From positions 1 through 32,421 of the forward strand of contig NZ_JAGSOH010000084.1 of assembly GCF_018139625.1 (NCBI RefSeq): 32,421 nucleotides of DNA, read 5' to 3'. Shown one piece after another: positions 2,702-31,020 of this stretch. The position numbers were made by a program, and so were the translations under genes. The first letter of the stretch is position 1. Each line of letters starts with the position of its first letter. The DNA is from Actinospica acidithermotolerans (lineage in GTDB: Bacteria; Actinomycetota; Actinomycetes; Streptomycetales; Catenulisporaceae). The notes under the pieces were generated by a model. The model was given only the letters and a program-made list of their open reading frames with translations, had not been told where the DNA came from and did not search any database.

Positions 2702-2749
2702 GTCGGGTCGGCTGTCGGGTCGGCTGTCGGGTCGGCTGTCGGGTCAGCC
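2702..2749. repeat. 12-bp tandem repeat x4 spanning the SARP stop codon
   Basis: Unit GTCGGGTCGGCT on the plus strand is repeated three times exactly (2702, 2714, 2726), with a fourth copy GTCGGGTCAGCC at 2738. The SARP stop (2744-2746) is in the fourth copy. Because 12 is a multiple of three, the equivalent triplet in each other copy is CGA instead of TGA on the minus strand, one transition away. Confidence 0.9.
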
Positions 2750-5038
2750 GGCGGGGCTTACCGGATGGCGGTGCCAGAGGAGTTCGCAGACCCGGTCGAG
2801 GCCCTGCGCGAGGTGGCGGCGGTACGTGCCGAAGGGCAGCCCCAGCTCTTGGGCCACGACGTGCTGCTGTTTCGCGTCGGCGTCGAGGTACGTGCAGGTG
2901 ATGGCGAGGTACTGCTTCTCACCGTGCCGATCCTCGCGAAGCTGGCGCAGTGCGAGCGATATCGCGGCGCGGACGCGTTCAGCGGGGACTACGTTGTCAT
3001 CGTCCGATGCGACGAGGTTCGTCTGGTGCAGCAGGCTGTCGGCCAGCGTGTCGGGCCGATGCCAGGCGCGCAGGGCCGAACGCACCGCGGCGTTGAACTC
3101 CTCGCGGGAGAGCGCGGCGGCGTCGGGCTCCGGCGGCATGTCGCCCAGGTGCGACAGAACCCTGGCACGCAGCACCTGGTGCCGTTCCGGGTCACGCCAT
3201 TTGAGGTCCGCGTCGAGGATCTCGCGGACGACGTCATGCGGGTACACGCCGAGCGGACCGGACTCGATGAACGGCAGCTCGCGCAGCCAGGCGAACAGGG
3301 CCGGCGTGTCGGCGTCCGGTAGCGCGGCGCGCAGCAGTTCCTCGTTCGTGGTCGGCAGCAATGCGCATACGTCAAGCGCCTGCCTGTGCTCGGCAGACGG
3401 GGCGTCGCCCACCAACTGGTCCACGAGCGCGCCGATGACGTCGTACGACGGTGCCCAATCCGCCTCGTCGTCCGCACTCTCGTCGCGCCGAACCGAGTCC
3501 GCGGCGAGCGACAGGGCGAGGGGGTTGCCACCGGCGAATGCGAGGACCGACTTCGTCTGCGCTGCCGGCACCTCGCGCGCGGCCAGGAGCTGCCGCGCGT
3601 CACCTTCGCTCAAGTCCCCCAGTTCGACGACGTCGAGGATGTCGTGCCACGCAGGGTCACTGCGCCATTCGCGCGCGGGCCGCGTCCTTCCGGCGAGCAC
3701 GACGATCGTGCCGAGCGGCAGGCGCGGCAGGAAATCCTCGCGCAGCCACGGCTCAAGAGGTTGATACATCTCGAACCCGTCCACGAGGAGGGTCGCGCGA
3801 CCCGCCTCCGGCGCGAGCATCCGCGACGCGGCGGCTTCGAAGGCGGACTGCGTGCACTCGACGTCGCGGACCGCGTCCAGCTCGACGACCGTCCGGCCGA
3901 CCTCCGCCGACTCCTCCGCGAAACGCCGGAGCAGCGTGGTCTTGCCGACGCCGCCGGGGCCGGTCACGAACAGCAGGGTGAAGGCGCGCCCGGCGTCGCC
4001 GAGGGCGGATCGGAACGCCGCGATCTCGGCTTCCCGGCCGACGAAGGCGCGGCGGCGCGCCTCCTGGAGCTGCCGCGCGAGGCAGGAGCGCGACGTTCCG
4101 GGAAGCGGCGGGGCCGGATCGTCCGACGGGGCCGGACTGATCGACGGGGCCGGCGCGATGACCTCGGCGCGCGGCTCGTGGCGTTGCGGCGGGATGTCGA
4201 TCATGCGTACGGCCAGAGCACCGCCGACCTGCCTCCTGCGGACGGCCACCGCGCTGACTCCGGTGCGCGGCCCGGAAAGCGGGGCCAGCGCGTCGTCGGC
4301 GCTGAGCACGCGCAGCTGCATGCGCTTGAGAGCCGGGCCGGGCTCGATGCCGAGTTCGTCGCGCAGCACGCGGCGGGCCCGCTCGTAGACCTCCAGCGCG
4401 TCGGCCTGCCGTCCGGCGCGGTAGAGCGCGAGCATCAGCAGTTCGTGCAGGCTCTCCCGCAGCGGGTACGTCGTGATCAGCGTCCTGAGGCCGGCGATCG
4501 CGGCGAGGTGGTCGCCGGCCTCGACCTGTGCCGCCGCCTCGATCTCGGCGGCATCCGCGCGCAGCTCCGTGAGCCGGGCGCGCACCCAGTCGAAATACGG
4601 CCCCGGTACGCCGACGAGCGGTTCGCCGCGCCACTCGGCCAGCGCCCGGCGGCAGAGGTCTGCCGCGTCGGCGCCCGCGCGCCGCGCGGCCATCGCGGCG
4701 GTGACCCGCTCCTCGAAGACGTCGGCGTCCACCGACACCCTCTCGCCGCGCAGCGCGTAGCCGTCGCCGATCGGCTCGATGACGATGCCCGCACCCGCCT
4801 CGCCCGAGTTAAGGATCTGCCGCAGCCTGGAGACGTACGTGCGCACGGCTCCCGCACCCGACTTCGGCGGGTGCTCCCCCCACAGCGCGTCCAGCATCGA
4901 CGCCATCGAGACGTGTGCGCCGCGCGCGAGCAGCAGCACGGCGAGCACCGCCTGCTGCTGCGGCGGCCCGATCTCCAGCTCCGTCCCCGCGCGCCACGCG
5001 CGCACCGGCCCCAACAGCCGGAAAGTGAAATCGTCCAT
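2744..5038 (-). CDS. SARP/AfsR-type transcriptional activator with NTPase domain
   Basis: A 764-residue regulator. Residues about 5-97 form an OmpR-like winged helix (FRLLGPVRAW, then VRTYVSRLRQIL); about 100-245 form the bacterial transcriptional activator domain (EPLVGVPGPYFDWVRARL, LRESLHELLMLALYRAG). After a proline-rich linker an NTPase follows with Walker A GPGGVGKTT (Lys366) and Walker B-like LLVDGFE near residue 418. The last 70 residues (VAQELGLPFGTYRRHLAQGL) look like a second helix-turn-helix. This is AfsR-like, but I see no TPR block. Such proteins bind 11-bp-phased heptamer repeats and recruit RNA polymerase; a matching array lies in the divergent intergenic region. The ATG at 5038 has GGAGGG upstream and begins the winged helix; an earlier start at 5140 lacks that support. 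The stop lies inside a 12-bp tandem repeat. Confidence 0.88.
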   Translation of the reverse strand: MDDFTFRLLGPVRAWRAGTELEIGPPQQQAVLAVLLLARGAHVSMASMLDALWGEHPPKSGAGAVRTYVSRLRQILNSGEAGAGIVIEPIGDGYALRGERVSVDADVFEERVTAAMAARRAGADAADLCRRALAEWRGEPLVGVPGPYFDWVRARLTELRADAAEIEAAAQVEAGDHLAAIAGLRTLITTYPLRESLHELLMLALYRAGRQADALEVYERARRVLRDELGIEPGPALKRMQLRVLSADDALAPLSGPRTGVSAVAVRRRQVGGALAVRMIDIPPQRHEPRAEVIAPAPSISPAPSDDPAPPLPGTSRSCLARQLQEARRRAFVGREAEIAAFRSALGDAGRAFTLLFVTGPGGVGKTTLLRRFAEESAEVGRTVVELDAVRDVECTQSAFEAAASRMLAPEAGRATLLVDGFEMYQPLEPWLREDFLPRLPLGTIVVLAGRTRPAREWRSDPAWHDILDVVELGDLSEGDARQLLAAREVPAAQTKSVLAFAGGNPLALSLAADSVRRDESADDEADWAPSYDVIGALVDQLVGDAPSAEHRQALDVCALLPTTNEELLRAALPDADTPALFAWLRELPFIESGPLGVYPHDVVREILDADLKWRDPERHQVLRARVLSHLGDMPPEPDAAALSREEFNAAVRSALRAWHRPDTLADSLLHQTNLVASDDDNVVPAERVRAAISLALRQLREDRHGEKQYLAITCTYLDADAKQQHVVAQELGLPFGTYRRHLAQGLDRVCELLWHRHPVSPAG

Positions 5039-5230
5039 CCGTAGCCCTCCCCGCTCCCCGAGCGCCCCGTTGCCGTGCGGACGGCCGAGTCGTGCCTGCG
5101 GTCCTCGGATGATCTTCGCGGGCCCGGTTCCGCGAAACATCCGTCAATCTCACTGAACATACGCTAAGAGGGGGCTGAAGGAGCGACGGCTTTTCCTTGA
5201 GCCGGGGTGGCGCGACCGGCTCTTCAGGCG

Positions 5231-5259
5231 CGTTGACGGGGCGTAGACAGGGCGTTGAT
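5231..5259 (+). promoter_or_regulatory. SARP-box-like heptamer array
   Basis: Three direct heptamers, CGTTGAC (5231-5237), CGTAGAC (5242-5248) and CGTTGAT (5253-5259), are separated by exactly four bases each, giving an 11-bp period. Characterised SARPs such as ActII-ORF4 bind heptamers in this arrangement just upstream of the -10 element. A -10-like TAGCGT at 5270-5275 follows after 10 bases. The site lies between the divergent SARP and sigma genes. Confidence 0.6.
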
Positions 5260-5269
5260 CGGCCGCCCC

Positions 5270-5275
5270 TAGCGT
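5270..5275 (+). promoter_or_regulatory. -10-like element of the sigma/alr-ddl operon
   Basis: TAGCGT sits 10 bases after the last heptamer and 23 bases before the chosen ATG. No TTGAC-like -35 is at normal distance, which fits an activator-dependent promoter where the SARP occupies the -35 region. An alternative -10, TACGCT at 5160-5165, would give a longer leader. Confidence 0.4.
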
Positions 5276-5298
5276 GCTGCGCCGTGGAGGACAAACGA

Positions 5299-5904
5299 AT
5301 GCGGGCCCTCTACGCGACCCACAGCCGGCCGCTGCTGTCCTCGATCATCCGATGGACGAGCGGGGACCGGCAGGCCGCGGAGGATCTGCTGCAGGAGACG
5401 ATGCTGCGCGCGTGGCGCAATCTGCCCACGCTCGAGGACGCCTCCGCCCGCGCCTGGCTGCTGACCGTGGCCCGGCGGCTGGCGATCGACGCGTCGCGCA
5501 GCCGGGCCGCCCGGCCCGCCGAGTGCGGCGACGAGCCCCTGGCCGCGATCGCGGCCGGGCCCGACCACGTGCAGCAGGTGCTCGACCGCGCACTGCTCGC
5601 GCCCGCCCTGGCCGGCCTGCCCCATCCGCAGCGCGACGTGCTCTTCCACGTCTACTACCTGCGCAGCACGATGCGGCAGACCGCCGAGACCCTCGGCATC
5701 CCCGAGGGCACCGTCAAGACCCGCACCCGCCACGCGCTGCGCACCCTCCGCGGCGACCTCGCCGAACAGAACCCGCACCCGCTCACGAAGAACATTGGTG
5801 GTGGACCAGCTCCATGTACCCGCCGCTCGCCCCAGAACCCGCCGTCCCGGCCGGATCACCATCGTCAGTCGCCGAGACCCCGGCCATCCCGGGGGAACGG
5901 ATGA
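5299..5904 (+). CDS. ECF-type RNA polymerase sigma factor
   Basis: A 201-residue sigma-70 family protein. Region 2 covers about residues 1-70 (AAEDLLQETMLRAWRNL, ARAWLLTVARRLAID) and region 4 about 102-152 (LPHPQRDVLFHVYYL, then the helix-turn-helix TAETLGIPEGTVKTRTRHAL). The last 48 residues are Pro/Arg-rich with no recognisable fold. The ATG at 5299 has a strong GGAGG eight bases upstream; a GTG at 5284 is possible but would overlap that site. The stop TGA overlaps the next start as ATGA, implying translational coupling to alr-ddl. No anti-sigma gene is visible beside it, so control is probably transcriptional, perhaps through the adjacent SARP. The target promoters are unknown. Confidence 0.85.
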   Translation: MRALYATHSRPLLSSIIRWTSGDRQAAEDLLQETMLRAWRNLPTLEDASARAWLLTVARRLAIDASRSRAARPAECGDEPLAAIAAGPDHVQQVLDRALLAPALAGLPHPQRDVLFHVYYLRSTMRQTAETLGIPEGTVKTRTRHALRTLRGDLAEQNPHPLTKNIGGGPAPCTRRSPQNPPSRPDHHRQSPRPRPSRGNG

Positions 5905-8090
5905 CGGAGGCGGTCGTCGACCTCGCGGCCCTCGCCGAGAACCTGCGGATCTTCCGCGCCCGCACCGACGCCGCGCTGATGGCCGTGGTCAAGGCCGACG
6001 GCTACGGCCACGGCGCCGTGCAGATCGCGCGCGCCGCGCTGGCCCACGGCGCGACGTGGCTGGCGGCGTCCTTCATCGGTGAGGCGCTCGCGCTGCGCGC
6101 GGCCGGAATCCAGGCGCCGATCCTGACCTTCCTGCACCTGCCGGACGAGGACGTGACCGAGGCGCTGCGCGCCGATCTCGATCTGACCGTGTCGTCGCAG
6201 GCGCAGCTCGCCGAGATCGCCGCGTGCGCGAAGCGGCTCGGCCGGACCGCCGAGGTCCAGCTCAAGGTGGACACCGGCCTGCACCGCAACGGCGCCTCGC
6301 CGGCGCAGTGGCCCGCGCTCGTCGAGGCGGCGGCCCGGCTGGAGCGCGAGGGCTCGGTGCACGTCCGCGGCATCTGGTCGCACCTCGTGCATCCGGACCA
6401 GCCCGGCCATCCGACGACCACGCGTCAGCTCGACCTGTTCGACGAGGCGGTCCGCGAGGCCGAGCGGGCCGGTCTCACCGGCCGTCTGCGGCACATCGCG
6501 AACTCCACCGCCGCGCTGACGATTCCGCGGTCGCACTACGATGTGATCCGGCTCGGCAGCGGCCTGTACGGCATCGACCACGCGGGCGGAAACGGCCTGG
6601 TCCCGACGATGACCCTGCGCGCGCGGATCGCGATGACGCGCCGGGTCGACGCGGGTGAGGGCGTCTCGTACGACCACCTGTACCAGACCGCTGAGGCGAG
6701 CAATCTCGCGCTCGTGCCGCTGGGCTACGCCGACGGACTGCCGCGCGCGGCGTCCGGCAGTGCACGGATATCAGTGCTCGGCGAGCAGCGATCGGTGGCC
6801 GGGCGCATCGCGATGAACTCGTGCATTGTCGACGCCGGCCAGCTCGATGTCATGCCCGGGGACGAGGCCGTGGTCTTCGGCACCGGATCGCGGGGCGAGC
6901 CGACGGTCGCGGATTGGGCGGCGTGGTCCGGCACCACTCCGCTGGAGATCCTGACCCGGGTCAGCCCGCGTGTGCCGCGCCGGTACATCACGGCCGCCGA
7001 AGGCGAGGTGCCGGCCGCGAGGGAATCAGGGCACGACGGCAAGCTGCGGGTGGTCGTGCTGTTCGGCGGCCCCGGCGGCGAGTACGACGTCTCCTGTGCT
7101 TCGGGCGCCACCATCGTCAGCTACCTCGATCGCGAGCGCTACCGCGTGCAGCCGGTGCGGATCAGCCCGGAAGGGCGCTGGATCCCCGGCCCGACGGACT
7201 GGCCCGCCGGAGTCTTCGGCCCGCACGACCTGGTCGCGGCGACGCCGGATCCGGCCGTGCGCAGCGGCGCCGGCCACGGGCAGGCGCTCGAGGTGCTGGC
7301 CGCGGCCGACGTGGTCGTGCCGGCGCTGCACGGTCCGTTCGGCGAGGACGGCACCGTCCAAGCGCTGATGGACGCGCTGGGCGTGCGCTACGTCGGATCC
7401 GGCATGGCGGCGAGCGTTCTCGGCATGGACAAGGACGCGGCCAAGCGCGTGCTCGTCACCAGCGGCCTGCGCGTGGCGGACTGGGCCGTGCTGCGCCGCG
7501 AGGTCGACGACCTGTCCGACGCGGACCGCGAACGGCTCGGGCTGCCGGCGTTCGTCAAGCCCGCGCGGTCCGGATCCAGCGTGGGCGTGAGCCGCGTCAA
7601 GAACTGGGAGGAGCTCGGCACGGCACTGGCCACGGCCCGCAAGTGGGACGAGAAGGTGCTCGTCGAGCGCAGCGTGATCGGCCGCGAAGTGGACATCGCC
7701 GTGCTCGAGCATCCGGACGGCCGGATCGAGGCGAGCCCGCCGGTCGAGATCGTGCTGCACCAGGGCGGCCGCGACTTCCTCGACTACGCGGCGAAGTACC
7801 AGGACGCGACGGCCACGGACATCCTGCTGCCCGCGCCGATCGCGCCCGAGATCACGGCCGAGCTGCAGCGGATGGCGGTGCAGGCGTTCGAGATCCTCGG
7901 CTGCCGCGGGCTCGCGCGGGTGGACTTCCTGCTGCGCGACGGGGTCGAACCGGTGTTCAACGAGATCAACACGTTCCCCGGGTTCAGCGCCACGTCGCTC
8001 TATCCGCGGATGTGGGCCGAGGCCGGGATCCCGCTGCCGCGCCTGCTCGACACGATGATCGACACGGTGCTCGCCGGAGTGCCCGCGTAA
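5901..8090 (+). CDS. fused alanine racemase / D-alanine-D-alanine ligase
   Basis: A single 729-residue frame joins two cytosolic enzymes of the D-Ala branch of peptidoglycan synthesis. Residues 1-365 are a PLP alanine racemase: PLP lysine in VVKADGYGHG (Lys31), catalytic tyrosine region GVSYDHLY (Tyr257) and LGYADGLPR. Residues 381-729 are an ATP-grasp Ddl: LFGGPGGEYDVSC, LHGPFGEDGTVQ, KPARSGSSVGVS, DFLDYAAKYQD and FNEINTFPGFSATSLYPR. The AAKY loop is of the D-Ala-D-Ala type rather than the D-lactate (VanA) type. The Ddl N-terminal loop has GG where many enzymes have RSS. The start at 5901 overlaps the sigma stop as ATGA; an ATG at 5814 is in frame but has weak ribosome-binding sequence. Fusion would channel L-Ala to D-Ala-D-Ala in one chain. 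Activity of both halves is inferred from motifs. Confidence 0.9.
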   Translation: MTEAVVDLAALAENLRIFRARTDAALMAVVKADGYGHGAVQIARAALAHGATWLAASFIGEALALRAAGIQAPILTFLHLPDEDVTEALRADLDLTVSSQAQLAEIAACAKRLGRTAEVQLKVDTGLHRNGASPAQWPALVEAAARLEREGSVHVRGIWSHLVHPDQPGHPTTTRQLDLFDEAVREAERAGLTGRLRHIANSTAALTIPRSHYDVIRLGSGLYGIDHAGGNGLVPTMTLRARIAMTRRVDAGEGVSYDHLYQTAEASNLALVPLGYADGLPRAASGSARISVLGEQRSVAGRIAMNSCIVDAGQLDVMPGDEAVVFGTGSRGEPTVADWAAWSGTTPLEILTRVSPRVPRRYITAAEGEVPAARESGHDGKLRVVVLFGGPGGEYDVSCASGATIVSYLDRERYRVQPVRISPEGRWIPGPTDWPAGVFGPHDLVAATPDPAVRSGAGHGQALEVLAAADVVVPALHGPFGEDGTVQALMDALGVRYVGSGMAASVLGMDKDAAKRVLVTSGLRVADWAVLRREVDDLSDADRERLGLPAFVKPARSGSSVGVSRVKNWEELGTALATARKWDEKVLVERSVIGREVDIAVLEHPDGRIEASPPVEIVLHQGGRDFLDYAAKYQDATATDILLPAPIAPEITAELQRMAVQAFEILGCRGLARVDFLLRDGVEPVFNEINTFPGFSATSLYPRMWAEAGIPLPRLLDTMIDTVLAGVPA

Positions 8091-8102
8091 CTGCCCGGCG
8101 CG

Positions 8103-8136
8103 GGCGTGGGGCGGGCCGGCCGGCTCGCCCCACGCC
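8103..8136. terminator. bidirectional hairpin between alr-ddl and murF
   Basis: Arms GGCGTGGGGCG (8103-8113) and CGCCCCACGCC (8126-8136) form an 11-bp perfect stem with a 12-base loop. It starts 12 bases after the alr-ddl stop and ends 34 bases beyond the murF stop, so it can end both convergent transcripts. No T-run is present. Confidence 0.75.
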
Positions 8137-8170
8137 GTCGGTCGGCGCTGGTCAGCTCATTGCGACAGCG

Positions 8171-9571
8171 TCAGTGAACCGTTTCCGGCTGTCCGGCCAA
8201 CTGCTCGGCGAGCGGCTGCAGCCCGGCGGGTTGCGAGGCCTTGAAGAGCACGGTGTCCCCGGAGGCGAGCAGCCCGTCGAGCAGGATTCGCGCCTCGACG
8301 TTGTCGACGGTGCGGTGCACGGTCGCGCCGGCGGCCTCGGCGCCGTCGGCGATCCATCCGGCCTCCTCGCTGCCCTTGAGTCCGCCGACGGTGATCAGCA
8401 GGTCAACGCCGAGTTCCGCGGTCAGCGCGCCTATCGCGCGGTGCTCCGGCTCCGCCTCCTCACCCAGGCCCAGCATCGCGCCGAGCACGGCGATCTTCCG
8501 CCGGCCGTTCGCCATCGCCGTCAGGGCCCTGAGAGCGGCGCGGGTGCTGTGCGGGTTGGCGTTGTACGCGTCGTTGACGATGACGATGCCGTCCGGCCGC
8601 TCGGTGATCTCGAGCCGGCCGCCGGAGGCCGCGGTCGCGGTACCGAGGCCGGCGGCGATCTCCTCGGTGCTGAGCCCGATGCGGCGGGCGACGGCCGCGG
8701 CGGCGAGCGCGTTGCCGACCTGGTGCTCGCCGATCAGCTGCAGCGACACGGGTGCCGAGCCCTCCGGGGTGTGCAGCGTGAAGTGCGCGCGTCCGTACTC
8801 GTCCACCCGCAGATCGGATGCGCGGATGTCGGCATCCTGGGCAAAGCCGAACAGGACCACGTCGGCCTTCGTCCGCGAGCGCATCGAGAGCACGCGCTCG
8901 TCGTCGGCGTTGAGCACGGCGAGACCCGTGGCCGGCAGCGCTTCGACGAGCTCTCCCTTGCCCTGCGTCGTCGCCGCGTAGCCGCCGAACTCGCCGAGGT
9001 GCGCGGTGCCGATGTTCGTCACGACGCCGATCGACGGCGGCGCGATCTCCGTCAGGTACCTGATGTGCCCGATCGCGCGGGCGCCCATCTCCAGCACCAG
9101 GAAACGGGTGCCCGCCGAGGCCAGGCTGACCGTGAGCGGCAGCCCGATCTCGTTGTTGAAGTTGCCGGGCGTCGCGACGGTCTCGCCCCGGGTGCTCAGC
9201 AGGTGCGCGATCAGGTCCTTCGTCGTGGTCTTGCCCGCCGAGCCGGTGATGCCGAGCACCGTCATCCCGGAACCGCCGCGGGCGACCAGGTGCGCGGACA
9301 GCCGGCCGAGCGCGTCGACCCCGTCCGCGACCACGACCGCCGGGACACCCACCGGGCGCTGCGCGAGCACCGCGGCTGCGCCGCCGGACATCGCGGCCTC
9401 GACGTAGTCGTGCCCGTCCACCCGCTCGCCGGGCAGCGCGACGAAGAGCCCGCCCGCCTGCGCCTTGCGCGAGTCGACGAACGCGGGAGCCTTCACCACG
9501 ATGTCCTCGGCGCCGTCGTGCACGGTGCCCCCGACCACGTCGGCGAGCTCCCGCAGCGTTATCTCTCTCAT
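8171..9571 (-). CDS. murF: UDP-MurNAc-tripeptide:D-Ala-D-Ala ligase
   Basis: A 466-residue Mur ligase that adds the D-Ala-D-Ala dipeptide, the product expected from the neighbouring Alr-Ddl fusion, to the UDP-MurNAc tripeptide in the cytosol. Domain 1 is about residues 1-95 (AFVDSRKAQAGGLFVAL). The ATP-binding loop is GITGSAGKTTTKD (Lys114), followed by the central-domain motifs NFNNEIGLP, EMGARAIGHI and NDAYNANPHS, and then the C-terminal domain. Length is normal for MurF. The ATG at 9571 lacks a clear Shine-Dalgarno; TATGAC lies five bases upstream, so leaderless initiation is possible. murC, murD, mraY and fts genes are absent nearby, so this is not in a dcw cluster and may be a second copy. 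Confidence 0.9.
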   Translation of the reverse strand: MREITLRELADVVGGTVHDGAEDIVVKAPAFVDSRKAQAGGLFVALPGERVDGHDYVEAAMSGGAAAVLAQRPVGVPAVVVADGVDALGRLSAHLVARGGSGMTVLGITGSAGKTTTKDLIAHLLSTRGETVATPGNFNNEIGLPLTVSLASAGTRFLVLEMGARAIGHIRYLTEIAPPSIGVVTNIGTAHLGEFGGYAATTQGKGELVEALPATGLAVLNADDERVLSMRSRTKADVVLFGFAQDADIRASDLRVDEYGRAHFTLHTPEGSAPVSLQLIGEHQVGNALAAAAVARRIGLSTEEIAAGLGTATAASGGRLEITERPDGIVIVNDAYNANPHSTRAALRALTAMANGRRKIAVLGAMLGLGEEAEPEHRAIGALTAELGVDLLITVGGLKGSEEAGWIADGAEAAGATVHRTVDNVEARILLDGLLASGDTVLFKASQPAGLQPLAEQLAGQPETVH

Positions 9572-13416: not shown

Positions 13417-15957
13417 GTGTCAGTCTTGCGCGATGGGCTCCTGGTCGGCCGGGACGGCGAGGTGTCGCTGCTGCGCGGCCTGGTCGCGGCGGTGCGCTCG
13501 GGACGCGGCGGCATCGCGCTGATCGAGGGCGAGCCGGGGATCGGCAAGACCGCGCTGCTCGCCGAGGTCGCGCGCCGGGCCTCGGCGGCCGGAGTCCCCG
13601 CGCTGTGGATCTCCGGCGTGCCCGGCACCGAGCCGGACCTGCGGGATCGCACGCGTCCGGTCCTGGTCGTCTTCGACGATCTGCACGCCGCCGACGACGC
13701 GACCCTCGATCTCTGGCGCCGGCTCGCGGCAGCGACAGAGGACTCTCCGACGCTGGTCGTCGGCGCGCGACGGCTGGTGCCGCGGCGCCCCTCCGTGGAC
13801 CGGCTGCGCGAAGGCGCCGTCGTGATCCCGCTGTCCGGCCTCGATCCCGAGCACGTCGCCGCGCTGGCCGGTCCGGACGACCGGGATCGCCTCCAGGCGG
13901 CCGGCGGAAACCCGCGCTATATCCGGGAACTGATGGAAGGACCGACGCTGGCCGGTCCGGTCGCGGAAAAGCTCGGCTACCTCACGCCGCGCACGCTCGA
14001 AGTACTGCACGGCGCGGCGTTGCTCGGCGACCCGTTCTCGGTGGCTGATCTTTCGCTGATCACCGCGTTCTCGCCCATCGAGCTCGTCCCGGTGATCGAC
14101 GAAGCACTGGCCGCCGGCCTGATCGAACCGGCCGAGCATCAACTGCGGTTCCGGCACGCGGCGATACGGCGGGCGCTCTACGACGCGACACCTCCGGAGC
14201 GTCGCACCGCCCTGCATCTGGTGACGGCGTGGGTGCTGATGGCGACGGGCGCGCAGCCCGAACGTGTCGCGCGCCACCTGCTGGACAGCGGCGACTCGCC
14301 GAGCGAGGCGTGGGAAGCCGACTGGCTGGCGGCGCACGCCGAGACGCTGATGCGGCGCGAGCCGGGGACGGCCGCCGCGATCCTCGAGCGGGTCCTGCAC
14401 GGCCTGGATCCCGCCGATCCGCGCCGCGCCGAGTTCGAGGACTCACTCGCCGACGCCGACTTCCGGCTGTTCCGCTTCGAGGCGGCCGCGCGGATCGCCC
14501 GGCAGAACATCGCGCGCAGCACGGACCCGGAGCGGATCGGACGCAACACCTGGCTGCTCGGATACAGCCTGCTGAGGCTCCGGCGGCTCGACGACGTGCT
14601 GCGCGAGCTGGACGAGGCCTCGGCGCGGCCCGGCGTGACAGAACGCTGGCTCGCCCGGTACGCGGCGCTGCGGGCGGTCGCGTTCGGCGGCTGCGAGCAG
14701 CTGGAACGGGCCCGCGACGCCGCGCGCGACGCGCTGGCCGCCGGACGGCGCGCGCAGGACCCGATGGCGATCGGCTACGCGCTGCACGCGCAGTCGTACG
14801 TCACCATCGCCGCCGACCACGACGACGCCGCCGCGGCCACCCTGATCGACCGCGCGATGGCGGTCGTACTCGACGATCCGAACCTCTTCGACCTGCGGCT
14901 GTTGCTGTGGTGCAACCGCCTCGCCGTCGGATTCGAGGTCGGCGATCCGGCCGAGGAGCTGATGGACTGGGCGCGGCAGATGCTGGTCACGGCCGAGACC
15001 TCGGGTCTGCCGCGGCTGAACACGCTGCGCCTGCTCGTCGCCGAGGTCGCCTTCGAACTGGGCCTCTGGGACGAGGCCACTGATATCCTGGACCTGATAT
15101 CAGATCACGAGATAGCCACGGCGGCCACGCGGCACGCGATCCTCGCCCAACTGGCGGCCCGGCGCGACGACCCAGAGCAGGCGCGGCAGGCGTTGACAAC
15201 GATGCGCGAAGCCTGGGCCACCGGCGCGCAGACCGAGTACGGCCGAGTGTTCACTCTGGCGGCCGAGGCCTTCGAGCACGAACGCGAATGCGCACCGGAA
15301 GCAGCCCTCGAAATGCTGGCGGTCTGCCTGCGCCTCGGGCGCCCGAACCACCCGCTCCGCTACCGACTGCTCCCCGCGCTGTCCCGGCTGGCCCTGGCCG
15401 GCGGCGACAAGGCCCTGGCGCTGGACGCGGCACGAGCGGCCGAAACGGACGCAGGAGCGGGCTCGATCACCCGAAGGCGAGCCACCGATCTCTGGTGCCG
15501 CGGCCTGCTGGACGCGGATCCGGCCCCGATCCTCGAGGCCGCAGACCTCCTGCGCGAGGCCGGACTGCTGCCCGCGCACGGCAACGCCTTGGAGGACGCC
15601 GCCGAGCTGTTCGCACGCGCCCGCGACACCTCGCGCGCGAGGACGACGCTGGTCGAGGCCCTGGACGTCTACGAGGAGCTGGGCGCCGCCTGGGACGCCC
15701 GCCGCGCCACCTCCCGCCTCCGCGCGAACGGCGTGCGCCTGCGCACCGTCGCAGGCGGCAGGCGCGCCGTATCGGGCCCGGAGTCGCTGACCGAGACCGA
15801 ACGGAAGGTGGCCGATCTGGTGGCCGAAGGCCTGTCGAACCCGGACATCGCCGACCGCCTGAACCTCTCCCGGCGCACCGTCGAGAGCCACGTCTCGCGC
15901 ATCCTGGCCAAGCTCGGCGCCGCCTCACGCGTCGAGGTCAAGAACCATCTCGCGTAA
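13417..15957 (+). CDS. LuxR-family regulator with compact AAA ATPase (LAL-like)
   Basis: An 846-residue regulator. N-terminal NTPase with Walker A GEPGIGKTALLAE (Lys44) and Walker B-like VLVVFDDLHAADDATL (Asp87-Asp88); only about 40 residues separate them, shorter than I expect for LAL proteins, so part of the ATPase may be deleted. A long helical, TPR-like middle (about 190-770) is followed by a C-terminal LuxR helix-turn-helix (LTETERKVADLVAEGLSNPDIADRLNLSRRTVESHVSRILAKLG). The GTG at 13417 has no Shine-Dalgarno but a -10-like TAGCCT six bases upstream. A convergent paralogue follows, and the 3' end including the stop is duplicated twice. Regulated genes and effector are unknown. Confidence 0.85.
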   Translation: MSVLRDGLLVGRDGEVSLLRGLVAAVRSGRGGIALIEGEPGIGKTALLAEVARRASAAGVPALWISGVPGTEPDLRDRTRPVLVVFDDLHAADDATLDLWRRLAAATEDSPTLVVGARRLVPRRPSVDRLREGAVVIPLSGLDPEHVAALAGPDDRDRLQAAGGNPRYIRELMEGPTLAGPVAEKLGYLTPRTLEVLHGAALLGDPFSVADLSLITAFSPIELVPVIDEALAAGLIEPAEHQLRFRHAAIRRALYDATPPERRTALHLVTAWVLMATGAQPERVARHLLDSGDSPSEAWEADWLAAHAETLMRREPGTAAAILERVLHGLDPADPRRAEFEDSLADADFRLFRFEAAARIARQNIARSTDPERIGRNTWLLGYSLLRLRRLDDVLRELDEASARPGVTERWLARYAALRAVAFGGCEQLERARDAARDALAAGRRAQDPMAIGYALHAQSYVTIAADHDDAAAATLIDRAMAVVLDDPNLFDLRLLLWCNRLAVGFEVGDPAEELMDWARQMLVTAETSGLPRLNTLRLLVAEVAFELGLWDEATDILDLISDHEIATAATRHAILAQLAARRDDPEQARQALTTMREAWATGAQTEYGRVFTLAAEAFEHERECAPEAALEMLAVCLRLGRPNHPLRYRLLPALSRLALAGGDKALALDAARAAETDAGAGSITRRRATDLWCRGLLDADPAPILEAADLLREAGLLPAHGNALEDAAELFARARDTSRARTTLVEALDVYEELGAAWDARRATSRLRANGVRLRTVAGGRRAVSGPESLTETERKVADLVAEGLSNPDIADRLNLSRRTVESHVSRILAKLGAASRVEVKNHLA

Positions 15958-16229
15958 GCCGATCCCGGATCTCCCGGCGCACCGTCGAGAGCCACGTCTC
16001 GCGTCTCGCGCATCCTTGCCAAGCTCGGCGCCGCCTCGCGCCGGGAGATTCGGCGCCGCCTCACGCGTCGAGGTCAAGAACCACCTCGCGTAAGCCGATC
16101 CCGAATCTCCCGGCGCACCGACGAGAGCCACGTCTCGCGTCTCGCGCATCCTTGCCAAGCTCGGCGCCGCCTCGCGCCGGGAGATTCGGCGCCGCCTCAC
16201 GCGTCGAGATCAAGAACCACCTCGCGTAA
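15958..16229. repeat. 136-bp tandem duplication of the LuxR 3' end
   Basis: Two units (15958-16093 and 16094-16229) each end with the same CTCGCGTAA as the upstream gene and differ from each other at 3 of 136 positions. Each restates the end of the gene's helix-turn-helix (from CTCCCGGCGCACC to the stop) with two insertions: a 7-bp duplication of TCTCGCG, and 25 bp that reads SRREIR in one frame, like the C-terminus of the convergent paralogue. The 7-bp insertion breaks the frame, so the copies are not functional helix-turn-helix modules. The second unit overlaps the last codons of the convergent gene. Confidence 0.92.
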
Positions 16230-18153
16230 GCCGATCCCGGATCTCCCGGCGCGAGCCGATCCGCAGCTTGGCGAGGATGTTCGAGATGTGCGTGTCCACC
16301 GTCCGCTTGGACAGGAACATCCTGGCCGCGATATCAGGATTCGAGTAGCCCTCGGCGGCAAGCTCGGCGACGCGCTGCTCGGTCGCGGTGAGCAGGCCGT
16401 TTCCGCTGCGGCCCGCGGTGCGTGCGCGGCTGCCGCGTACGCCGAGGCGCACGTCGTACGCGCGCAGCCGGGCCGCGGCCCGGCGGGCGTCCCAGGCGGC
16501 GCCCAGTTCCTCGTAGACGTCCAGGGCCTCGACGAGCGCCGTACGCGCCTGCTGCGACTCTCCGACCCGGGCAGACAACTCGGCCGCGTCTTCCAGCGCG
16601 TTGCCCGCGTCCAGGCGCAGCCCGGCGGCGCGGAAGTACGCGACGGCGCCGAGAACCAGCTTCGGGTCCGCGCCGAGCAGGCCGCGGCACCAATCGGCGC
16701 ACGCACGCTTGCGCGGCATCGCCTCCTGGTCGGCCTCCCACTTCGCGGCCTCGGTCGCGGCACGAGCCGTCGCCGTGTCCTGATTCACCGTCGCCAGGCG
16801 CACGAGCGTGGGCAGCACGGCGTGACGCAAGGGGAAGCGGTCCTCGGCGCCGGGTTCCAGAAGGACCGACAGCAGCGCCACGGCCTCGGCCGGCGACCCG
16901 TTTCGCTCGCTCTCCAGCGCGCGGGCGGCGAGGTCGTAGATGCTTATCGCCCCCTCCCGCGTCGCCAGATCCTTGAGATGCCGGGCGACCTCGGCCGAGT
17001 CGTCGCGGTGCGCGGCGATCAGCGCGGCGATGGCGGGGTCGGCGCTGACCTCGTCCCAACGGCCCAGGTCGTAGAGCACCTTCGTGGCCTGCTGCCGCAC
17101 TCTGGTCAGCCACAGCGAGCCGGTGCGCTCGCCGATCGAGAGCACTTCGCGCATCGCGTCCGACACTCCTTCGTGGTGCCCGAGCGCGAAGCGGTAGACG
17201 TAGCGGTTGCCGAGAAGCAGCATGCGCAGATCGGGAAACCCGGTAGCTCGCATCATCGCTGAGAGCCCTTGCTCCACGTCCTCCAGCGCGCCGGCCACGT
17301 CACGACGTGCCGCGCGGGCGACCGAGCGGAGGTAGAGCGCCGCGCCGACCGTGAACGGGTCCGGCGGGCTGACCTCGGCGGCCAGTGCGCGTTCGGCGGC
17401 GGCCCGGCCCTGCTCAAGCCGGCCCAGGATCTCCAGGACGACGGCGCGTACCGCATCGTTGCGGGCGCGCCAGAACTCCGCGATCCCGGGGCCGCGGTCG
17501 AGATCCTCGAGCAGGCCGAGCGCCTCCTCGAAACGGCGCCTGGTCATCAGGCTGAGCGCGAGGATCCAGACGGCGGGCCCGACGCGGGCCGGGTCGCGGC
17601 TCTGCGTGAGGATGCCGCGCGCGATGCCCGCGGCCTGCTCGAAGCGGTCGAGCTCGAACGTGTAGCGGGCCCAGCGGTCCTCGAGCCGCGCGTGCCGCGG
17701 ATCGGCCGGGTCGATGCCGCGCAGCACGTGGCCGATGAGCTCGACCGCGAGCTCCGGCTCACGCGCGTAGAGCGTGGCGGTGTGCTCGATCAGCCAGTCC
17801 GCCTCCCACCGCTCGGCCTCGTCCCCGGCGGCGAGCAGGTGCCGCGCGATGCGCTCCGGCGCGACACTCAAGCCATTGAAGATCTTCGCCGTATACCGAT
17901 GCAATGCCATGCGAAGACCGGCCGGAATCGCTTCGTACAGTTCACGTCGAAGCCCCTCGTCCCGGAAGCACAGGGCACCGCCATCCGCCCGCAGAAGACC
18001 CGAGTCGATCGCGTCGTCCAGCAACACCCTGAGTTCTTCGGCGGGCCGGCTCAGCACGGCCGCCAGCTCGCGCAGCGAGAACCCGTCACCGAGAACGGCC
18101 GCGCCACGCAGCATCTCCAGCATCGACCGCTCAGGTCGCCGCCCTTGCACCAT
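16210..18153 (-). CDS. LuxR-family regulator paralogue lacking the ATPase domain
   Basis: A 647-residue protein aligned end to end with residues about 190-846 of the convergent LuxR regulator: MLEMLRGAAVLGDGFSLREL against VLHGAALLGDPFSVADL, then RIDPADP-like, ALVEALDVYEELGAAWDARR and a C-terminal helix-turn-helix (LTATEQRVAELAAEGYSNPDIAARMFLSK by parts). There is no P-loop; an upstream in-frame extension to 18306 is Arg/Gly-rich and also lacks one. It may be a truncated paralogue, or a regulator that no longer needs ATP. The ATG at 18153 has G-rich but weak ribosome-binding sequence. The last nine codons and stop lie inside the antisense of the 136-bp repeat, so its C-terminus (IRDRLTRGGS) depends on that sequence. 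Confidence 0.78.
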   Translation of the reverse strand: MVQGRRPERSMLEMLRGAAVLGDGFSLRELAAVLSRPAEELRVLLDDAIDSGLLRADGGALCFRDEGLRRELYEAIPAGLRMALHRYTAKIFNGLSVAPERIARHLLAAGDEAERWEADWLIEHTATLYAREPELAVELIGHVLRGIDPADPRHARLEDRWARYTFELDRFEQAAGIARGILTQSRDPARVGPAVWILALSLMTRRRFEEALGLLEDLDRGPGIAEFWRARNDAVRAVVLEILGRLEQGRAAAERALAAEVSPPDPFTVGAALYLRSVARAARRDVAGALEDVEQGLSAMMRATGFPDLRMLLLGNRYVYRFALGHHEGVSDAMREVLSIGERTGSLWLTRVRQQATKVLYDLGRWDEVSADPAIAALIAAHRDDSAEVARHLKDLATREGAISIYDLAARALESERNGSPAEAVALLSVLLEPGAEDRFPLRHAVLPTLVRLATVNQDTATARAATEAAKWEADQEAMPRKRACADWCRGLLGADPKLVLGAVAYFRAAGLRLDAGNALEDAAELSARVGESQQARTALVEALDVYEELGAAWDARRAAARLRAYDVRLGVRGSRARTAGRSGNGLLTATEQRVAELAAEGYSNPDIAARMFLSKRTVDTHISNILAKLRIGSRREIRDRLTRGGS

Positions 18154-18235
18154 CGTCGCGCCCCCACTCTCTCCCGCGCCGTACCGGCCGCGCGCCCTGC
18201 CCCTTCCGTGCTCCCCGTTGCGACGCCGTCCGGCG

Positions 18236-18246
18236 ACAACGGTTGT
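18236..18246. promoter_or_regulatory. short inverted repeat between LuxR paralogue and deacetylase
   Basis: ACAAC and GTTGT flank a single G in the 184-base divergent region, next to AT-richer sequence (TTACAAATCGAT) that may hold promoter elements. Too short to be certain; noted as an operator candidate. Confidence 0.25.
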
Positions 18247-18337
18247 TACAAATCGATCACGGGCGCCGCCGCGGCCTGGCGGAAAAACGCCGGGAATTTC
18301 TTTCAACCCCTCGGCGAGACCCGTCGTCTTTGGCGGC

Positions 18338-28730: not shown

Positions 28731-30977
28731 GTGCCCCGTAGACTCCACCTCACCTCCGCGTTCCTCCTGACGCTCTCCGGCGCCGCGCTGCTGCCCGCGC
28801 AGTCCGCCGAGGCGGCCGGGGCGACGGATGTCACGGCCGCGGTGCTCGCGGGCTCGAACGTGACGCTGTCCGGCCCGTCGATCATCGACCTGCCCTCCGG
28901 CACGACCACGTACAACGGCGTCTTCTCCGGAATGGGAACGCTAACAATCGCCGGCTCCGGAACGCTCGTGCTCACCAAGGACAGCGACTTCACCCTGCCG
29001 AGCGCCGACCGGCGGCAGAGCGTGACCACCAGCGGCGGGAACTGGCCGTACCCGATCGTCTCGAACCCGGATCAGCCCGCTGTGATCGTCGAGCGCGGCG
29101 CCACGCTGCAGTACGGCACGGGCGGCCAGGCCGGGATCATCGGCGACTACCCCTACACCTCGATCAGCGGCCTGATGCTCAACCACGACAACATCGAGGT
29201 CGACGGCACGCTCGATCTGGACATCTCCGGCCGCGAGTTCAACCTCGGCACGATCACCGGGTCCGGCACGATCTCGCAGCCCAAGAACATGTGGGGCACC
29301 CTGGATCTCGCCGACGACATCCCGTTCGCCGGCACGATCGCGGACGGCACCGGCTTCAACTTCGGCAGTGCGGCCTTCCGCCTCTCGCTCCCGTCCGCCG
29401 CGTCCGTGCACAACGACGGCTCGGCGATCATCAGTGCCCGCAATTACACGCTCACGCTGCCCGAGGACTTCTACGAGGACCAGTACGGCAGCGATATCAA
29501 CTTCCACACCTGGCAGGCCGGCCTAATAGAGATGACCGGCGTAGACCACTACATCGACACATCGCTCGACACCGCGAGCATCGCGCACACCTCGAACTTC
29601 CGCGGCATCAACATCGAGGGCGCGAACGTCCAGTGGGGCGATGGGACCACCGATCGGTTCTTCCTGCCCGCCACGCCGTCGGACTCCTACATCAACATCC
29701 ACAAGAACGGCTCGCTCACCTTCGACTACGACGGCCCGGTCACCCTCGACACCCCGATCTCCGGCGGCGTCTACCACGCCTCGCTCAGCACTCCCGCGAA
29801 TGCCTCCATCGCCCTCGCGCCCACCAGCGGCAATGCCGTGACCTTCGCGGTCCCGATGAACTACCACGGCGACACCACCATCGGACGCGGTGCGACACTC
29901 CTGCTCGGCACCGGCACGGCAGGCGGCGACAGCAGCCTGCTGACCAGTGCCTCCAACGACCACATCACCGACAACGGCACGCTGACGGTCCGCAACACCT
30001 CGACGGCAATCACGTTGGCGAACATCAGCGGCTCCGGCGGCCTCACCCAATCCGGCCTGGCGACGACGACCCTGTCCCGCACGACGGACTACACCGGGCC
30101 GACGACGATCAGTTCGGGCACGCTCGCAGTCGGCCCAGGCGCATCAGGGATCGGATCCAGCAGCGGCGTCAGCCTGACCGGTACGCGCGCGGTACTCGAG
30201 ATAGCGGCGGCGGGGCAGAGCGTGAAGCAACTGTCCGGCGTCGCAGGTAGCACGGTCGCGTTGGGCGGCAACACCCTGAGCATCGGCACGTCGGGCGCGA
30301 CGACGTACGCGGGATCGATCACCGGCACCTCGGGGGGCGTGACGACGACCGGCAGCGGGACACTCACGCTGACCGGACACGCGAGCACACCGACCGGAAC
30401 CTGGCACGTGCAGCAGGGGACGCTGGCGATCGGGGCGTCCGGATCGCTCAGCATCGGCTCGCTGATCCAGTCGGCGGGGAGCACGCTGGCGATCGCGGCA
30501 GGCACGTCCACGCCGGTGACCGTTGCGGGCGCGATCCAGCTCGGCGGATCGCTCAAGGTCACCTCGCTCCCGCCGGTCGCGACGGGCGGGAAGATCGTGC
30601 TCATCCACGAAACCGGAACGCAAGCGGTCTCCGGCGCTTTCACCGGCCTGCCGCAAGGAGCCAAACTGCTGGTCGAGGGCCATCAGTACACGATCGACTA
30701 CGCGGGCGGATCAGGTCACGACGTCGTTCTCGCCGCCGGGGCGGCCGCGTCGCCGTCCACAGCCGGTGGATCGTCTTCGGGCGTGAACGCGGCAGACAGC
30801 GGCGGCGGTACGAGCGGATCGGGCGGAAGCTCGGTGTTCGAGTTCGTAGGTGCCGTGGTCGCGGCGGCTGCGGTGGCCCTCGGCGGGTGGCTGTTCTTCA
30901 AGCGCGGCAAGAATCAGGCGCGACGCGGATCGCGGAGGCGCCGGGAGCGGCGTCCCCGCGACCCGCGTCAGGTGTGA
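28731..30977 (+). CDS. surface protein with autotransporter-associated (PATR-type) beta-strand repeats
   Basis: A 748-residue exported protein. Residues 1-29 are a signal peptide (basic RRLHLT, hydrophobic SAFLLTLSGAALL, AEAA). The body is beta-rich with repeated GTL.. motifs; the clearest PATR-type repeat is GSGGLTQSGLATTTLS plus DYTGPTTISSGTLAVG (about residues 428-465), with others at TGSGTLTLTGHAS and GTWHVQQGTLAIG. A Ser/Gly linker leads to one C-terminal membrane segment (FEFVGAVVAAAAVALGGWLFF) and a basic tail, so it is anchored in the cell membrane, not by LPXTG. PATR repeats are best known from Gram-negative autotransporters, but there is no beta-barrel here. The GTG at 28731 has a weak GAGAG upstream. 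Likely an extracellular beta-helix, ligand unknown. Confidence 0.78.
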   Translation: MPRRLHLTSAFLLTLSGAALLPAQSAEAAGATDVTAAVLAGSNVTLSGPSIIDLPSGTTTYNGVFSGMGTLTIAGSGTLVLTKDSDFTLPSADRRQSVTTSGGNWPYPIVSNPDQPAVIVERGATLQYGTGGQAGIIGDYPYTSISGLMLNHDNIEVDGTLDLDISGREFNLGTITGSGTISQPKNMWGTLDLADDIPFAGTIADGTGFNFGSAAFRLSLPSAASVHNDGSAIISARNYTLTLPEDFYEDQYGSDINFHTWQAGLIEMTGVDHYIDTSLDTASIAHTSNFRGINIEGANVQWGDGTTDRFFLPATPSDSYINIHKNGSLTFDYDGPVTLDTPISGGVYHASLSTPANASIALAPTSGNAVTFAVPMNYHGDTTIGRGATLLLGTGTAGGDSSLLTSASNDHITDNGTLTVRNTSTAITLANISGSGGLTQSGLATTTLSRTTDYTGPTTISSGTLAVGPGASGIGSSSGVSLTGTRAVLEIAAAGQSVKQLSGVAGSTVALGGNTLSIGTSGATTYAGSITGTSGGVTTTGSGTLTLTGHASTPTGTWHVQQGTLAIGASGSLSIGSLIQSAGSTLAIAAGTSTPVTVAGAIQLGGSLKVTSLPPVATGGKIVLIHETGTQAVSGAFTGLPQGAKLLVEGHQYTIDYAGGSGHDVVLAAGAAASPSTAGGSSSGVNAADSGGGTSGSGGSSVFEFVGAVVAAAAVALGGWLFFKRGKNQARRGSRRRRERRPRDPRQV

Positions 30978-30981
30978 TGCG

Positions 30982-31020
30982 GGGTCAGGAAAGGGTCAAG
31001 ACAGGGTCAGGACAGGCTCA
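30982..31020. repeat. 11-bp tandem repeat x4 spanning the GH43 stop
   Basis: TCA recurs at 30985, 30996, 31007 and 31018 within units like GGGTCAGGACA. The triplet at 31007-31009 is the stop of the GH43 gene; 31018 lies out of phase inside coding sequence. The 11-bp period shifts frame in each copy. Confidence 0.85.

Follow-up and report, generated by a model that had tools for sequence, protein, structure and literature searches.

The window analysed here is a whole contig of 32,421 bases, the contig ending at both window ends. Within it, the intergenic region 5039-5298 parts a SARP regulator gene on the minus strand (ATG at 5038) from an ECF sigma factor gene on the plus strand (ATG at 5299), in agreement with the initial annotation, which had described the SARP gene as divergent. 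The features of the locus are given below.

2744-5038, minus strand: SARP regulator gene (764 aa); the product has an AfsR-like winged helix and BTAD followed by a STAND-type ATPase half
5231-5237, plus strand: heptamer 1, CGTTGAC, read from the sequence; an extra upstream repeat at -51 to -45 relative to the predicted start
5242-5248, plus strand: heptamer 2, CGTAGAC, read from the sequence
5244-5249, plus strand: TAGACA within the heptamer-2 region, at the afsS -35 position (-38 to -33)
5253-5259, plus strand: heptamer 3, CGTTGAT, read from the sequence
5270-5275, plus strand: predicted -10 element TAGCGT, 10 nt after heptamer 3
5282, plus strand: predicted transcription start, from promoter geometry
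5286-5290, plus strand: ribosome-binding site GGAGG for the ATG at 5299, by sequence reading
5299-5904, plus strand: ECF sigma factor gene; Sigma70_r2 (1.5e-15), Sigma70_r4 (6.6e-10), TIGR02937 above cut-off
5901-8090, plus strand: fused alr-ddl; Ala_racemase_N/C and Dala_Dala_lig_N/C in a single frame
8171-9571, minus strand: accessory MurF, convergent with alr-ddl; TIGR01143, 395.8 bits
12144-13313, minus strand: accessory MurG; Glyco_transf_28 domains

The three heptamers upstream of the sigma gene are separated by GGGG (1/2) and AGGG (2/3), i.e. by 4 nt each, giving an 11-bp period, and exactly 10 nt (CGGCCGCCCC) lie between heptamer 3 and TAGCGT. Position 5 is G in all three. These heptamers, with their four-base spacing, 11-bp period and 10-nt distance to TAGCGT, had been reported in the initial annotation, and its spacing and offset were confirmed. 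We determined how often such an arrangement arises by chance by simulating 500,000 sequences with an order-1 Markov model of the 259-bp intergenic region and searching them on both strands. The template, CGT(T/A)NA(C/T) three times at an 11-bp period, was composed after the site was known; no simulated sequence carried it with 0 or 1 mismatch, and the real one matches it at every position and has the hexamer as well. Triplets with up to 2 mismatches appeared in 42 of the 500,000, none of them with (C/T)ANNNT 10 nt downstream. In a template-free test, any three similar 7-mers at an 11-bp period were present in 0.87% of 3,000 simulated intergenic sequences. Equally alike triplets, not of the CGT type, occur at two other places in the window (2646 and about 30981); at 30980-31013 there is another 11-bp direct-repeat run (AGGGTCA type), between convergent frames ending at 30977 and 31007. 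When the whole 7.9-Mb genome was scanned for the CGTWGAY triplet, allowing up to 3 mismatches, the single match was 5231-5259, and the reversed control pattern gave 2.

The available part of PMC10936776 describes the afsS box as a pair of 11-bp repeats spanning -40 to -19 and places the -35 element at -38 to -33, and that of PMC10972967 gives the AfsR repeat consensus as CGTT(T/C)ATCGNN. When TAGCGT is assumed to occupy -12 to -7, the usual place, repeats 2 and 3 span -40 to -19, TAGACA falls at -38 to -33 and transcription would start at 5282, the same register as that described for afsS. The 11-mer of repeat 3, CGTTGATCGGC, departs from this consensus at position 5 alone; repeats 1 and 2 depart more. 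As in the AfsR-type operators described there, two or more similar heptamers stand at an 11-bp period, the repeats overlap the -35 and 10 nt separate them from NANNNT (the -10 position being assumed), but none of the three heptamers reads CGTT(T/C)AT, each having G at position 5. The site 5231-5275 was not recovered by a two-repeat afsS-type pattern at 2 mismatches, and neither was any site in the 14 genomes of the same family (G000-G013). In the positive control the same pattern, with up to 2 mismatches, matched 42 of 60 genomes, some of these 2-mismatch matches being the WhiB-type site described below, and the reversed control matched 1. All 25 afsS-type sites in genomes of the order, the subset of the 30 loci listed that passed a stricter expression, had NANNNT at offset 10, a partly circular figure in that the search pattern already required the A and the T. 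Several of the 25 precede frames with repeated motifs of what we take to be an AfsS-like protein.

The locus can also be compared with AfsR/afsS as a whole. As far as the accessible sources describe that system, both have 11-bp direct repeats of the form CGTTNA(T/C), a pair of which overlaps the -35, 10 nt before a NANNNT -10; both have a large SARP with an ATPase domain and a recognition helix carrying the equivalents of T88 and R92; and in both the target is a regulatory gene, AfsS being called sigma factor-like in a review. Unlike afsS, the window has three repeats, G at position 5 and a regulator divergent from its target, which comprises an ECF sigma factor and a cell-wall enzyme, and its SARP has a different C-terminal half. 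Three heptamers with 4-nt spacers and a regulatory gene as target are also described, in the part of the literature available to us, for the SARP-LAL regulator PimR and pimM; in contrast to the window, the PimR heptamer is CGGCAAG, its operator does not overlap the -35 and it belongs to a polyene cluster. Judged by its sequence, 5231-5275 is a putative AfsR-like operator and not an AfsR box.

The start of the SARP gene is most likely the ATG at 5038 rather than that of a longer open reading frame at 5140. On the longer frame, Pfam gave BTAD (8.6e-38), Trans_reg_C (1.1e-6) and AAA_16 (4.8e-10), and residues 5-270 of the SARP matched AfsR PDB chains (E 1e-58); an N-terminal winged helix followed by BTAD, the arrangement that defines the SARP family, was thus found. 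The recognition helix reads AVRTYVSRLRQIL in the window SARP and AVRTYASRLRKVL in AfsR. T88 and R92 of AfsR contact bases, T88 the base pair at heptamer position 5 (PMC10936776, available part), and both are kept in the window SARP as T67 and R71. The genome holds 15 SARP-domain matches including the window SARP, i.e. 14 further ones. Among the 13 of these that were aligned, none had both contact residues, the arginine being present in 11 and the threonine in 1. R92 alone does not set the window SARP apart; T88 is the distinguishing residue in its genome. The initial reading of the repeats as a SARP box is well supported by the period, the -10 offset, the orientation to the sigma gene and the adjoining SARP with both AfsR contact residues.

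The window SARP is evidently not an AfsR orthologue. It scored 233.5 bits against the NCBIfam AfsR model, whose cut-off is 1430; in the tree it lay outside the AfsR clade and grouped with two SARPs from same-family genomes (100/99); and a Pfam scan at E 0.001 found no TPR domain, the AfsR-type C-terminus. Its C-terminal half has relatives among STAND proteins that lack this DNA-binding domain. For the DNA-binding domain itself, the closest relatives are three SARPs in same-family genomes, 49-53% identical, in which both contact residues are changed according to the alignments. No triplet of similar heptamers at a 10-12-bp period was found upstream of these three, which stand in a transporter neighbourhood, judged by eye; box and helix would at least not be in conflict among these three relatives. 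A D-Ala-D-Ala-ligase-type gene (L285, 5382-6605) lies about 2.7 kb from a related SARP in a same-family genome, and is absent from the 20 kb around two sister SARPs.

On the other side of the intergenic region, an alternative sigma start, GTG at 5284, would be nearly leaderless. The ATG of alr-ddl (5901) overlaps the sigma stop (ATGA), the alternative being an earlier in-frame start overlapping the 3' end of the sigma gene. No sigma-70-type promoter or terminator was found on the plus strand in 5030-8200; the minus strand of the same scan gave one promoter-like and one terminator-like site, the latter at 5323-5300. No anti-sigma gene was seen between the sigma gene and its neighbours, the SARP gene and alr-ddl. 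The ligase half scored as a D-Ala-D-Ala ligase (NF002528, 359.8 bits, cut-off 262), as against 247 bits with VanG (cut-off 495) and at most 221 with the D-Lac models (cut-offs of at least 550). The repeats had initially been placed before a cell-wall precursor operon; a D-Ala-D-Ala enzyme does follow the sigma gene, but alr and ddl form one fused frame and not two genes.

The genome has further copies of Alr (51% identical), Ddl (48%) and MurF (52%), and its best other MurG-like match is 32% identical. Because Alr, Ddl, MurF and MurG are duplicated elsewhere in the genome, the target looks like an accessory precursor module; MurF belongs to this module, outside the sigma-alr-ddl operon. The suggestion that the SARP controls D-Ala-D-Ala supply is supported only as far as operon structure goes (no sigma-70-type promoter or terminator found on the plus strand in 5030-8200, ATGA overlap), and the supply is accessory. 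Van-type loci are similar in that extra murF/murG genes lie beside van genes and that rare vanYRS loci have alanine racemase and Ddl genes (PMC8698665, accessible part); they differ from the window, where the regulators are a SARP and an ECF sigma factor and Alr and Ddl are fused. Neither vanHAX nor VanRS was recognised among the window frames scanned. Fused steps of precursor synthesis are also known from the MurF-Alr and MurC-Ddl bifunctional enzymes of the NCBIfam models, but Alr-Ddl is a different combination, and the 25 of 51 NCBIfam matches listed included no model for a bifunctional Alr-Ddl. In open-access literature listings no paper was found on Alr and Ddl fusion or self-resistance, and a search there for a bifunctional Alr-Ddl gave nothing.

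We searched for relatives with the same arrangement, and none that was found kept the SARP-sigma-alr-ddl order. The sigma query returned paralogues only (at most 52%), and at E 1e-85 none of 393 other genomes of the class had a full-length relative of the SARP. In overlapping samples of 391 and 394 genomes, a single-frame Alr-Ddl fusion occurred in one other genome (G045) and adjoining separate genes in another (G305). At least 10 of the 80 loci listed matched both Alr and Ddl; in ten such named loci a stop lay between alr and ddl in 9 (including L100, the locus of G305), and L146 had the order ddl-alr. The sequence around the other Alr-Ddl cassettes contained no SARP DNA-binding domain and no match to this sigma factor, and a scan for two repeats plus a -10 gave no match in 466 kb of sequence from 26 related loci, other Alr-Ddl cassettes included, of which two loci overlap. 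In G045 and S. spinoverrucosus, Alr and Ddl are accompanied by MurF, and in G045 and Catenuloplanes japonicus MurG lies near them. The fusion of G045 (L066, 4-4811) is 62% identical, with MurF before it and an Acyl_transf_3 gene after it, as in Catenuloplanes. In Catenuloplanes japonicus (L099, 6575-13680), the genes for Alr, Ddl, an Acyl_transf_3 protein and a STAND ATPase diverge from MurG, and this ATPase is 45% identical to the C-terminal half of the SARP. This stand-alone homologue in an Alr-Ddl operon raised the STAND half as a general marker of Alr-Ddl loci, a link that was rejected when a search at E 1e-6 of 12 other 20-kb STAND-gene regions found none of Alr, Ddl, MurF and MurG. OmpR-type response regulators lie near Micromonosporaceae Alr-Ddl pairs (L107, 6356-7012; L178, 7225-7917; L146, 11239-11895; L170, 11914-12648), assigned by Pfam in L107, L178 and L170 and by opening residues only in L146, and are reminiscent of VanRS control.

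Of 391 genomes of the order, 195 had the CGTWGAY triplet at 2 mismatches or fewer, as compared with 30 for the reversed control (hand count). The 29 other CGTWGAY loci that were read are part of all matches. NANNNT stood at offset 10 in 17 of them with no -10 in the pattern (11 at offset 34, at most 5 at any other), 15 of these 17 being one and the same WhiB-type site. This conserved site consists of three repeats, mostly CGTTGAT, CGTTGAT, CGTTTTT, and 10 nt usually separate it from a -10; of the 29 loci, 16 have it upstream of a WhiB-family gene (L188-L192, L195-L200, L202-L205 and L207, the match in L207 being one repeat upstream); the WhiB assignment is by sequence reading, with Pfam Whib confirmed in 3 of the 3 tested. 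The WhiB-type site may be an AfsR target, on which no paper was found in the literature listings searched. None of the 29 loci had a match to the window SARP within 1.5 kb; a weak SARP match lay about 9-10 kb away in 2 of nine 20-kb regions.

Taken with its surroundings, 5231-5275 is probably an AfsR-like activator promoter, from which the adjoining SARP would drive the ECF sigma gene and the coupled alr-ddl. It is very likely that the SARP box is real and serves the sigma-alr-ddl promoter, and the adjoining SARP is the best candidate for its activator. The strongest argument for pairing the two is that, among the SARP domains aligned from the genome, the only one with both contact residues belongs to the gene beside the genome's only such box, with 193 bp between this box and the SARP start codon. 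Against the pairing, T88 is kept, yet the base pair it contacts, position 5, is the one that differs. In the mechanism we propose, SARP subunits made from the divergent gene would bind the 11-bp repeats side by side; a pair on repeats 2 and 3 would cover -40 to -19 and dock sigma region 4, serving a promoter with a good -10 (TAGCGT), a poor -35 and a 20-nt spacer, while repeat 1 would recruit a third subunit. RNA polymerase would then transcribe the ECF sigma gene together with the fused alr-ddl, the latter being translated by coupling. Any signal that the SARP senses through its STAND half would thereby raise the sigma factor and the D-Ala-D-Ala made by the accessory enzyme, and the presumed benefit would be an extra or protected precursor supply during cell-wall stress.

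Other regulators were weighed against this pairing. ECF sigma genes are often autoregulated, and this common habit would fit a sigma gene read from its own ECF promoter with the repeats uninvolved. We regard this as very unlikely: TGAAC or G(G/T)AAC followed after 15-18 nt by CGT, two ECF-type motifs that may not be those of this sigma factor, is absent from 5039-5298, and the repeats sit exactly at the position expected of a SARP box. The repeats might instead be the operator of an OmpR-type response regulator (PhoP or VanR-like), since such regulators bind direct repeats of 11 bp as well. The PhoP repeat contains TTCA, whereas those of the window read TTGA or TAGA, although the 11-bp period does fit. 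Response regulators near Alr-Ddl pairs in the four Micromonosporaceae loci, and a PhoP-bound region overlapping the AfsR site at afsS according to the accessible part of a review, speak for such an operator. It nevertheless appears unlikely, as none of the 19 window frames scanned was recognised as a response regulator and the 10-nt offset and the adjoining SARP suit a SARP better.

Another SARP of the genome might instead act on the box in trans, with the adjoining SARP controlling something else. The 14 further SARP-domain matches, the R92 equivalent in 11 of the 13 aligned and the lack of a window-SARP match near the 29 other CGTWGAY loci are in keeping with this, but it is improbable given that none of the 13 has both AfsR contact residues and that the box is so close to the adjoining gene. 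Finally, the repeats could be a product of chance or an unused relict. The same arrangement was found in no relative, hence purifying selection cannot be shown; against this stand the 500,000 simulations and the single site in the genome, which leave such an origin extremely unlikely.

If the pairing of the adjoining SARP with the box holds, it would provide a SARP that targets cell-wall precursor supply. SARPs are known for activating antibiotic clusters, and one wired to a sigma factor and D-Ala-D-Ala synthesis would tie this regulator class to cell-wall metabolism; no paper on SARP control of peptidoglycan or alanine racemase was found in the open-access literature, searched by listings. 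The difference at position 5 offers a handle on how SARP specificity is set, and the promoter grammar of repeats, 10 nt and NANNNT also marks the recurrent site before the WhiB-family gene in the order. D-cycloserine inhibits both Alr and Ddl and is an example of an antibiotic against which the module might act. Tentatively, and with considerable doubt, the locus may serve inducible self-protection: a STAND-ATPase SARP and an ECF sigma factor would replace the VanRS-like two-component systems of other accessory cell-wall loci, switching on Alr-Ddl beside MurF/MurG and so sustaining lipid II synthesis under antibiotic. This possibility is drawn from the response regulators near other cassettes and from the racemase and Ddl genes beside vanYRS in the accessible part of PMC8698665. 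The window also encodes, at 13417-15957 and 16210-18306, two more large regulators whose C-terminal HTH domains are of the LuxR type.
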